Shown: positions 11,135 to 13,715 of the stretch, piece by piece
Position numbering within the stretch: position 1 is the first letter of the stretch
How the letters are laid out: each line of letters starts with the position of its first letter
From: Pseudomonadota bacterium
GTDB lineage: Bacteria > Pseudomonadota > Gammaproteobacteria > Burkholderiales > SG8-39
Direction: 5' to 3'
Assembly: GCA_003242425.1 (NCBI GenBank)
Contig: QGUL01000009.1
Coordinates: 1 to 13,715 of the forward strand
Length of the DNA stretch: 13,715 nt
Position numbers and translations under genes: made by a program
The notes under the pieces: model-generated
What the model was told of the DNA's origin: nothing
Seen by the model: the letters and a program-made list of their open reading frames with translations, nothing else
Database searches by the model: none

Positions 11135-12153
<1,019 letters not shown>

Positions 12154-12167
12154 GAGTCGGCTTTGGT

Positions 12168-12209
12168 AAAAAAGCACCCGGTCGTTTGCAGGGAGGAAAG
12201 AGGAGGTGC
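12168..12209 (-). terminator. Weak candidate terminator of the vapBC transcript
   Basis: Read on the minus strand, GCACC (12209-12205) can pair with GGTGC (12178-12174) and is followed by six T (12173-12168), 18 nt or so beyond the toxin stop. The stem is only 5 bp and the loop about 26 nt, so this is a tentative call based mainly on the T-run. No alternative terminator is visible for the WYL gene in this gap. Confidence 0.25.
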
Positions 12210-12226
12210 GGGAAAAATCCGGTCAA

Positions 12227-12655
12227 TCAATTCAGCAGGGGAATACCCGCTTCTTCGGCGGCAGCCTGCAAGGCAGCGTCATAGGCGAGGAATCCAAACG
12301 CCGATTCGCTGCCCAGCAAGCGGTACACGGCGTCGGCGGCCGCGAGATGCACACTATCGTACCCGCGCAGGCCGTAGCGTCCCGCGAATACACCCGCTTG
12401 ACGCACCAGGCGTTCGTCAACCATGACCACGCTCCAGGTCGGCCAGAGCTGGTCCAGTCCTTCTTTCAGGCGTTGAAACAGGCGCGGGTCGTTCTGGTGA
12501 CGCGCGAAGCGCGCGAACGCGGAACAGGCCTCCGCGTAGGCGACCAGGTGCGTGACGACCTCGTCGCTCGTTTCGACGATTTTCCGAACCTGTGCCGAAT
12601 GGGCTTCGTCGACCAGAAGTTTGACGAAGGCGGAGGTGTCGAGATACGCAATCAT
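12227..12655 (-). CDS. vapC: PIN-domain ribonuclease toxin, VapC family
   Basis: A 142-aa PIN-domain protein, expected to be the Mg2+-dependent RNase toxin of a type II toxin-antitoxin system; VapC toxins usually cut tRNA or rRNA and stop translation. The acidic active-site residues are all present: D6 (IAYLDTSAFVKLLVDE), E42 (VAYAEACSAFARFAR), D100 (GLRGYDSVHLAAA) and D126 (GFLAYDAALQAAAEEAGI). The C-terminus AGIPLLN is usual for the family. The ATG (12655-12653) overlaps the antitoxin stop by 4 nt (ATGA), which couples toxin to antitoxin synthesis. The protein is intact, with no frameshift or missing catalytic residue, so it is probably active. The cellular target cannot be told from sequence. 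Confidence 0.93.
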   Translation of the reverse strand: MIAYLDTSAFVKLLVDEAHSAQVRKIVETSDEVVTHLVAYAEACSAFARFARHQNDPRLFQRLKEGLDQLWPTWSVVMVDERLVRQAGVFAGRYGLRGYDSVHLAAADAVYRLLGSESAFGFLAYDAALQAAAEEAGIPLLN

Positions 12656-12936
12656 TCGCGCTGTTCGCTAACCCAGTCCGACAAGGATTTCTCCCCGCTC
12701 TTCGCTCGTGCGATCGGGTGGGGAAGAGGTGTCTTCCCCCGACTTGCACGAATCCACGGCTGGTTCCGAAGCCGCATGCGCGCGACTTCCTTGGGCGACG
12801 CCTGTTGGGCGTTGCCCGGACCGAGCAAACGGGCGATCACCTTGCCGCGCGAGGTGACTATGACTTCTTCACCTGCGTTGGCGCGGCGCAGGTATTCCGA
12901 TAGCCGGTTCTTCAGTTCTCGCACCGAGACGTCCAT
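12652..12936 (-). CDS. vapB: Phd/YefM-family antitoxin (VapB partner)
   Basis: A 94-aa antitoxin and DNA-binding autorepressor paired with the PIN toxin. The N-terminal Phd/YefM fold is clear: MDVSVRELKNRLSEYLRRAN, then AGEEVIVTSRGKVIARLLGPG (residues 1-41). The remaining part, basic and Pro-rich and ending GEKSLSDWVSEQRE, is the toxin-neutralising tail. The start is placed at 12936 because the Phd fold begins there and because the promoter predicts transcription starting near 12961, so the upstream in-frame ATGs (12996, 12969) would not lie on the mRNA. No strong Shine-Dalgarno is seen. The TGA overlaps the toxin ATG. The operator just upstream supports repression by VapB or the VapBC complex. 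Confidence 0.92.
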   Translation of the reverse strand: MDVSVRELKNRLSEYLRRANAGEEVIVTSRGKVIARLLGPGNAQQASPKEVARMRLRNQPWIRASRGKTPLPHPIARAKSGEKSLSDWVSEQRE

Positions 12937-12940
12937 GATC

Positions 12941-12970
12941 GTGGCCACATTTTTTGAATGTGGCCACATT
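12941..12970 (-). promoter_or_regulatory. Twin palindromic operator of vapBC
   Basis: GTGGCCACATT occurs twice in direct orientation on the plus strand (12941-12951 and 12960-12970), 19 bp apart centre to centre, about two helical turns. The right-hand copy is a perfect 14-bp palindrome, AATGTGGCCACATT (12957-12970). The left-hand copy has the 8-bp palindromic core GTGGCCAC. Viewed together, 12941-12950 and 12958-12967 also form a perfect 10-bp inverted repeat around a 7-nt spacer. The right copy overlaps the vapB -10 box and start of transcription. This is the expected layout for repression by a dimeric antitoxin or toxin-antitoxin complex. Confidence 0.8.
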
Positions 12971-12996
12971 ATGGCGCCTTGGGGTGTGATCCACAA
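12968..12996 (-). promoter_or_regulatory. Sigma70-type promoter of vapBC
   Basis: On the minus strand a -35 box TTGTGG (12996-12991), a 17-nt spacer and a -10 box CATAAT (12973-12968) lie directly upstream of the antitoxin gene. Transcription should start near 12961, inside the operator palindrome, leaving a leader of about 25 nt before the ATG at 12936. Confidence 0.7.
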
Positions 12997-13011
12997 CCCT
13001 TGTCCTGCCGC

Positions 13012-13044
13012 GCTGCGGCGAATAGCCGCGGCTTTTCTTTTTTT
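13012..13044 (+). terminator. Intrinsic terminator in the leader of the cas gene (possible attenuator)
   Basis: GCTGCGGC (13012-13019) pairs with GCCGCGGC (13025-13032) over 8 bp with one wobble and a GAATA loop, followed by TTTTCTTTTTTT (13033-13044). It is a strong plus-strand terminator. Only 14 nt separate the T-tract from the cas7 ATG (13059), leaving room for the Shine-Dalgarno but not for a promoter. On the minus strand it has no T-tract. It either ends plus-strand readthrough from the WYL gene across vapBC or attenuates the cas operon. Confidence 0.8.
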
Positions 13045-13058
13045 AAGAGGAGGTTACG

Positions 13059-13715
13059 ATGGATTTGCGCTCGCTTGAACTCGTCAAAGGCCCCTACGCT
13101 GCCCTGCGTATCAATCAACGTCTGCTACCGGCCGGCGGCCCGGGCAGCAAGCTGTTTCCGCCGACCTTCGAAGGCGGGGTGTACTGCTTCGAGCAGCGGC
13201 GTATCGATGGGGAGACCAAGCACTGCGTGCTGCTTCATTCCGTGGCCGCCTGCGCCAACCTGCACGAAGAAGTGCTGCTCGACCTAGCCGAGCGCGGCGA
13301 GATCGAATTGCCGCGCATGCTGGTGGATTTCGACGCGTTCCCGGAGATCGGTCACGTATCCACATTGGAGGCGTCGCATCGGGTGTTCGACGCCGTGTTT
13401 CGAGATTCGGAGCTGGAGGGGCAGCCGTTCTCGAAACATCCGCTCTACAAGGAGCTGAGCCGTTCGAACGCCCACAACGCCACGGCGCTGTTTGCGCATT
13501 CGCCGCACGCGCTGTTGTTCGGGTGTTGGGATTCGACCGGATCGGCGGGTGGCTTGGGCAATAAGTTCGCACGGCGGCTGGTGTCCGAGATCATCGGCGT
13601 CGGCGTGGAGCGCGGCGAGACGCGCGGCGGCGTGAAACAGGATCAACTCGGTATTCCCTGCAACGTTGAGATCGAAATCGACAAGAACGGCGATTGGAAG
13701 CCCAAGGGCGTATTG
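13059..13715 (+). CDS. csb1: Type I-G (formerly I-U) CRISPR Cascade subunit Cas7 (Csb1, GSU0053 family), 3' partial
   Basis: The backbone subunit expected to polymerise along the crRNA in the type I-G surveillance complex. 219 residues are visible and the frame is still open at the window end. The identification rests on the Csb1 core: STLEASHRVFDAVFRDSELEG (101-121, family form LEA.HR.ADA..RDS), HNATALFAHSPHALLFGCWD (139-158), STGSAGGLGNKFARRLVSEI (159-178) and GVGVERGETRGGVKQDQLGI (180-199), a Gly-rich RAMP-like region. The N-terminal part (YAALRINQRLLPAGGPGSKLFPPTFEGGVYCF, then CVLLHSVAACANLHEEVLL) resembles the family's opening, where a crRNA-binding RRM-like fold begins. AGGAGG (13048-13053) lies 5 nt before the ATG, an excellent ribosome binding site. 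It is the first gene of its transcript on the plus strand; the rest of the operon (in this subtype Cas5-Cas6 Csb2, Cas3, Cas8 Csx17 and the adaptation genes) should follow beyond the window. Recognition is from memory of family motifs, without a profile search. Confidence 0.82.
   Translation, partial: MDLRSLELVKGPYAALRINQRLLPAGGPGSKLFPPTFEGGVYCFEQRRIDGETKHCVLLHSVAACANLHEEVLLDLAERGEIELPRMLVDFDAFPEIGHVSTLEASHRVFDAVFRDSELEGQPFSKHPLYKELSRSNAHNATALFAHSPHALLFGCWDSTGSAGGLGNKFARRLVSEIIGVGVERGETRGGVKQDQLGIPCNVEIEIDKNGDWKPKGVL

Follow-up and report, generated by a model that had tools for sequence, protein, structure and literature searches.

Whether the open frame that closes this stretch of DNA is the beginning of a type I-G CRISPR-Cas operon, and if so which variant of the system it opens and how its expression might be controlled, is the question raised by this locus. 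The window (the whole 13,715-nt stretch analysed here) is identical to contig C199 of a 2.42 Mb assembly (533 contigs, 90.7% complete), so the frame is cut by the contig end and not by the choice of window. From its ATG it runs stop-free for 219 codons and matches the Csb1/Cas7g family far above chance, with PF09617 of Pfam at 2e-44 (152 bits, cut-off 25), TIGR02570 of NCBIfam at 1.3e-14 (54.4 bits, cut-off 38) and Cas7g of PADLOC at 4.1e-41, although the modest TIGR02570 score counts against the csb1 reading. The initial annotation had assigned the frame to Csb1/Cas7 of type I-G on account of four quoted motifs, all of which are present in the translation, and had noted an ideal AGGAGG site, which was located five bases before the ATG; it had also stated that the window ends within the first gene of a probable CRISPR operon and shows no repeats, and indeed the contig ends there and a repeat-array search of the window was empty, as was a search with Rfam at gathering score. 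The operon start is thus real and was read correctly from the letters alone, the refinements being the variant, the split of the operon and the upstream regulator. Positions 13059-13715 are very probably the 5′ half of a csb1 gene opening an operon of the csb1-csb2-cas3 variant of type I-G, split by an assembly break, for which an effector of Csb2, Csb1, a short Cas8g and Cas3g and a control by a WYL protein would be expected. The Csb1 family is well populated, a single search that scored 8,000 proteins giving 5,277 matches at E 0.001, and thinly spread: counting the own genome each time, matches were obtained in 4 of 101 relatives (TIGR02570), in 8 out of 369 genomes from the class (window protein as query) and in 6 out of 398 from the phylum (PF09617), and none in phage records.

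The last part of csb1 was found elsewhere in the same assembly, on contig C174 (3,564 bases), followed by csb2 and the start of cas3 (Table 1). Both latter genes had been predicted to lie to the right of the window, and both score above their NCBIfam cut-offs, the cas3 piece with 465 bits over profile positions 1-411 of 854 (TIGR02621, cut-off 400); the Csb1 piece on C174, by itself, was above no NCBIfam family. The overlap of C174 with the window is 195 bases long and 96% identical, and the 36 bases with which C174 begins remain unaligned, so the join rests on a database protein of 404 aa (P0091). This protein agrees with the window frame in 217 of its 219 residues and with the C174 frame in 238 of 239, which indicates that one csb1 gene spans the contig break. 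The two differences from the window frame fall at residues 200-201, close to the contig end. P0091 counts 10 members on 21 contigs, the longest of 210,235 bases. In Csb2 of C174 the glycine-rich loop is kept and a C-terminal histidine (H433) is invariant in eight aligned sequences; the catalytic histidine of the Thioalkalivibrio protein is H503 according to the available text of PMC9638904.

Table 1. Location of the features discussed in the text, in the window unless another contig or locus is named.
Feature	Location	Strand	Evidence or remark
HTH-WYL-WCX transcription regulator	11150-12153	+	frame broken between about 11368 and 11401
PIN-domain toxin gene	12227-12655	-	PF01850 7.7e-12
Phd/YefM-type antitoxin gene	12652-12936	-	PF02604 8.9e-10, TIGR01552 4.3e-11 (both on ORF 12652-12996)
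Perfect 11-nt inverted repeat GTGGCCACATT-5-AATGTGGCCAC	12941-12967		just upstream of likely antitoxin start
8-pair GC-rich hairpin (13012-13032, loop GAATA), then T-rich tract	13012-13044	+	terminator scan
AGGAGG ribosome-binding site of csb1	13048-13053	+	read from sequence; 5 bases ahead of ATG 13059
csb1 / cas7g, first 219 codons	13059-13715	+	family profiles; remainder on C174 up to 789
csb2 (Cas5-Cas6 fusion)	C174 793-2196		TIGR02165 6.2e-78, 263 bits, cut-off 45
cas3 start (Cas3g, GSU0051 family helicase-nuclease)	C174 2193-3563		TIGR02621 9e-139; cut by contig end
Type I-E operon part, own genome	L014 1-4064 (contig C135)		cas7e, cas5e, cas6e, cas1e, cas2e and three 29-nt repeats
WYL-cas slot: Phd/PIN	12227-12936		
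WYL-cas slot: PIN_3	L069 7322-7750		
WYL-cas slot: RmuC	L022 1488-2927		
WYL-cas slot: RmuC	L046 13516-15042	-	
WYL-cas slot: RmuC remnant	L020		
WYL-cas slot: YhcG-type nuclease	L040 2823-3965		
WYL-cas slot: PRiA4_ORF3 protein	L044		
CreR-like mini-array	L045 9714-9813	-	intergenic, before cas genes
CreR-like mini-array	L049 10148-10256	-	intergenic, before cas genes
CreR-like mini-array	L073 2475-2575	-	intergenic, before cas genes
CreR-like mini-array	L074 8623-8727	+	intergenic, before cas genes

Structural modelling is in agreement with the family assignment. An AlphaFold2 model of P0091, obtained from a 34-sequence alignment (mean pLDDT 81.1, pTM 0.81), had as its best PDB match the type I-G Cas7 chain 8ane_A (E 2.8e-9; TM 0.66 by target length and 0.53 by query length), and full-length Csb1 is accordingly predicted to fold like the solved protein. 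At the sequence level, P0091 alone matched none of 177,635 PDB sequences at E 0.01, a profile of 10 Csb1 sequences retrieved 8ane alone (E 0.0064), and a Csb2 profile gave no PDB match at E 0.01.

Upstream of csb1 the window encodes a regulator in which the reading frame changes between the HTH part (25.4 bits) and the WYL part. An intact near-identical regulator (P0121, 334 aa, 99% over the query, 14 members) shows WYL (4.4e-21), WCX (2.5e-19) and HTH_11 domains (4.9e-5; 23.6 bits, just below the cut-off of 25), and the frame break in the window is therefore either strain-specific or an assembly error. Homologues of P0121 recur upstream of the I-G genes, in the same orientation, in 11 of 26 distinct loci and in both gene architectures: the window itself, L020, L022, L040, L042, L043, L044, L046, L048 and L069, plus L045, which has a remnant of 114 aa. 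Identity outside the window is 43-69%. The 26 loci derive from 28 sequences, L049/L061 and L044/L062 each being a pair from one contig, and include three cut upstream (L047, L049, L072); no match was obtained in the other 15, among them L019, L021, L023, L024, L041, L070, L071 and L073-L076. In a Cereibacter plasmid locus (L077), which has no P0121 match, an annotated WYL gene adjoins cas3 in divergent orientation. The slot that separates the WYL gene from the first cas gene differs in content from locus to locus, and comprises toxin or nuclease-like genes (PIN, RmuC, YhcG-type) and others (Table 1).

WYL proteins are known in general beside CRISPR loci. In the type I-D system of Synechocystis, sll7009 is described as a WYL-domain negative regulator of CRISPR-Cas (available text of PMC4012209), and the regulator considered here has the same HTH and WYL domains (plus WCX in P0121) encoded beside cas genes; unlike sll7009, however, the regulator of the window is predicted only, and its frame is broken in its own assembly. 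In the window the slot is occupied by a toxin-antitoxin pair, for which the sequence makes 12936 the likely antitoxin start, the mechanical ORF extending to 12996. The perfect inverted repeat next to it is probably the operator of this pair. It was also considered as a first degenerate CRISPR repeat, a repeat-like end following it, and was rejected: a covariance model built from the repeats of six relatives (R1) scored the stretch 12943-12970, its only match in the leader besides the hairpin discussed below, at 5.1 and 7.0 bits, and given these low values and the position at the antitoxin start an operator is the simpler reading.

A hairpin separates the antitoxin start from the csb1 ribosome-binding site, so that a csb1 transcript starting further upstream must traverse it. 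We consider it likely that this is a plain intrinsic terminator or attenuator unrelated to CRISPR repeats, as the GC-rich stem of eight pairs followed by a T-tract would suggest. The terminator scan of positions 12150-13715 returned two sites against 2.3 expected in shuffled sequences, no sigma-70-type promoter match was present in the same stretch, and the fold of the 90-base csb1 leader exceeds that of shuffled versions by 1.6 sd, a level reached by 13 of the 200. R1 gave the hairpin only 12.7 bits (8.6 on the other strand), with E 1.7 over 301 kb and 0.015 over 2.7 kb, and the search for a crRNA-like spacer with a target gave nothing, both in favor of the terminator or attenuator. Against it stand the degenerate repeats that precede the cas genes in other I-G loci and the stem-loop core, identical at 16 of 18 bases to the I-G repeat of Tahibacter, the best of seven repeats tried; in a control, 5 of 1,360 window stretches reached as high a match, all of which may overlap the hairpin itself. 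The hairpin thus resembles the hairpin of an I-G CRISPR repeat, but weakly. A full CreR element in the window was rejected, there being one hairpin instead of two and no self-matching spacer: the self-target scan, which covered 450 bases ahead of csb1, gave no TTN-flanked match at 10/10 core positions and a single 9/10 pair, inside the toxin-antitoxin genes, and the best of 26 spacer offsets reached 7/10.

CreR-like elements belong to relatives of this locus and not to the window. R1 detected degenerate repeats just before the cas genes in L045 (23.3 and 19.8 bits), L049 (40.3 and 14.4), L074 (22.9 and 13.1) and L073 (21.2), and one hairpin in the same position in L022 (18.8). In the first four loci the first element ends in the handle ATTGAAGC, or in a variant with one mismatch, and is followed by a spacer-like stretch and a second hairpin. 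The start of the spacer matches a site in the same intergenic region beside a TTN PAM, with mismatches at positions 6 and 12, the core (positions 1-5 and 7-11) agreeing at 10/10 in L045, L049 and L073 and at 9/10 in L074; on our reading the matched sites may lie at promoters. A first scan of 464,301 bases from 32 loci, allowing up to two handle mismatches, found L045, L049 and L073, and further matched four array repeats to themselves (L059) and one stretch inside a csb2 gene (L077). In a stricter scan, limited to 311 sites with no more than one mismatch in the handle and freed of most array sites, matches beside TT at 10/10 numbered three at the true offset (L045, L049, L073) against none at an offset shifted by 30, and six (L074, L041 and L069 in addition) against two at 9/10, so that L074 alone is not decisive. 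The other 15 dinucleotides gave 13 matches at 10/10 at the true offset against five at the shifted one; among the matches listed (8 of the 13), seven came from one array (L047) and one from L020. For random 24-mers of the same loci (20,000 draws), the rate of matches to the leader was 0.0001 in L045 and likewise in L049.

In the parts of the literature available, CreR is described as mediating autorepression in types I-B, I-E and V-A (PMC13131331) and as widespread in type I (PMC12737573), the accessible text of the latter review containing neither 'I-G' nor 'I-U'. Our literature search found no paper pairing type I-G with CreR; the primary CreR survey was beyond its reach, and no priority is claimed. 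The four related I-G loci share with these described elements two degenerate repeats around a matching spacer beside a TTN PAM, whereas the window has a single repeat-like hairpin without a matching spacer. It is conceivable, albeit improbable in our judgement, that in I-G loci a repeat-derived RNA lying in front of the cas genes regulates them, CreR-like and with a nearby intergenic target in the four relatives, and that the window hairpin is a reduced form that Csb2 would bind or cut in the csb1 leader RNA, the level of Csb2 feeding back on csb1 and the WYL protein acting as a second, alternative control. None of the CreR-bearing loci has an intact WYL neighbour (a 114-aa remnant in L045, no match in L073 and L074, a cut contig in L049), but mutual exclusion of the two is not claimed, three informative loci being too few.

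The upstream frame break raises a further alternative, namely that the I-G locus is an orphan in decay and the genome relies on its type I-E system, and we regard this as unlikely. Contig C135 of the genome does bear a partial type I-E operon and three repeats of 29 nt, with Cas7e, Cas5e, Cas1e and Cas2e above their cut-offs and Cas6e below (37.4 bits against 45.2), and neither a I-G array nor a I-G Cas1 was found in the assembly. Across its 533 contigs no I-G Cas4-Cas1 was found, PF01867 matching only the type I-E Cas1 of C135, and the sole cas2 seen is the cas2e of the same contig. Two repeat patterns returned no I-G array from this fragmented genome, and neither did a stem-loop pattern, whose only exact match was the csb1 leader itself; the matches to GGCCTCRTTGAAGC with a single mismatch, nine in number, are scattered over as many contigs and hence form no array. 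Against decay, csb1, csb2 and the cas3 part are all open, csb2 and cas3 match strongly, a near-identical full-length Csb1 and an intact near-identical regulator exist elsewhere (P0091 and P0121), and the missing genes would fall beyond the contig ends. In L019 and L020, where the whole locus is on one contig, the order is csb1, csb2, cas3, short Cas8g, Cas4/Cas1, cas2 and an array of 36-nt repeats. For the operon of the window a short Cas8g, and the Cas4-Cas1, Cas2 and I-G array that the initial annotation had also placed to the right, would be expected from these relatives.

Adaptation and effector genes do not always keep the same company among the relatives. The Cas4-Cas1 proteins of L040-L042 and L045-L047 are 68-72% identical to that of L020 (43-68% in other loci), despite which their csb1, csb2 and cas3 are far apart; in L040-L042 a Csb1 of the window type went undetected by tblastn, and TIGR02570 does find a Csb1. 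This suggests that effector genes may have been swapped beside a common adaptation module. Three loci are of mixed composition, with cas3-csx17 genes followed, where the contig ends, by a csb1 of the other lineage (L043), with cas3-like genes ahead of a csb1-first operon (L044), or a csb1 remnant with a mini-array ahead of cas3 (L049), and are possible traces of effector replacement.

As to the large subunit, the fetched relatives fall into two architectures, one in csb1-csb2-cas3 order and one with cas3 first. All 11 loci of the former with sequence past cas3 carry a short Cas8g, or 'Cas3-extension' protein (NF049934), detected by HMM in six (L019, L020, L022, L023, L070, L075) and by tblastn only in five (L024, L044, L045, L069, L074; E 4e-10 to 2e-81); L021 and L076 end too early to show a protein past cas3 and are outside this count. 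In the five cas3-first loci with a tested Cas8, Csx17 (Cas8g1) follows cas3 in L040, L042 and L043, the only placement of Csx17 among the proteins tested, and Cas8g2 is present in L046 and L048; in L040 and L042 csb1 is placed after csx17. Three Cas8 size variants are described for type I-G (PMC9638904, in the text available). As the window and C174 together run in csb1-csb2-cas3 order, a short Cas8g is predicted, and the Csx17 (Cas8) that the initial annotation had placed downstream is rejected as the likely large subunit on the gene order of relatives. The same operon with Csx17 is very unlikely, even though Csx17 is the large subunit of the characterised type I-G system (available text of PMC9638904) and occurs in the bacterial family of the window (genome G037, L040; TIGR04113, 8.4e-188), for it directly follows cas3 in the three Csx17 loci tested, the same-order loci carry the short protein instead, and TIGR04113 was not found in the own assembly, where NF049934 was also silent, as both were in all of 14 control genomes.

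The locus is a genuine, ordinary member of a known system. Its gene order is equal to that of Tahibacter caeni (L019), the proteobacterial MAG ZC4RG24 (L020) and the Steroidobacteraceae MAG HOG51 (L022), whose Csb1 proteins are 59-63% identical in the best segment and which hold short Cas8g, Cas4-Cas1 and 36-nt arrays on one contig, the fetched stretch of L022 reaching the Cas4-Cas1 start only. A WYL regulator is also upstream in L020 and L022, with an RmuC remnant and RmuC, respectively, where the window has Phd/PIN, and has no match in the stretch of L019 examined. With the type I-G system of Thioalkalivibrio sulfidiphilus (PMC9638904; PDB 8ane), as far as the available text describes it, the window shares the Csb1/Cas7, Csb2 and Cas3 effector genes and the presence of toxin-antitoxin genes, and its predicted Csb1 fold matches 8ane_A best even though single-sequence search misses it; that system has Cas8g1/Csx17, whereas the csb1-csb2-cas3 order found here is tied to a short Cas8g in the fetched relatives. 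By analogy with the same characterised system (PMC9638904), the source for the cleavage by Csb2, the make-up of the effector and the TTN PAM, Csb2, a Cas5-Cas6 fusion, would cut the 36-nt repeats into crRNAs, Csb1 would form the Cascade backbone along the crRNA, the complex would be completed by a short Cas8g-like protein in place of Csx17, and Cas3g would degrade DNA adjoining a TTN PAM. Expression would most likely be controlled by the upstream HTH-WYL regulator.

With the window, the csb1-csb2-cas3 form of type I-G, for which the profile search of the PDB found only the Cas7 of the Csx17 form, gains a further member. Moreover, the WYL gene recurring in 11 of 26 loci and the CreR-like mini-arrays of four loci open the regulation of type I-G, a little-studied subtype, to direct testing.
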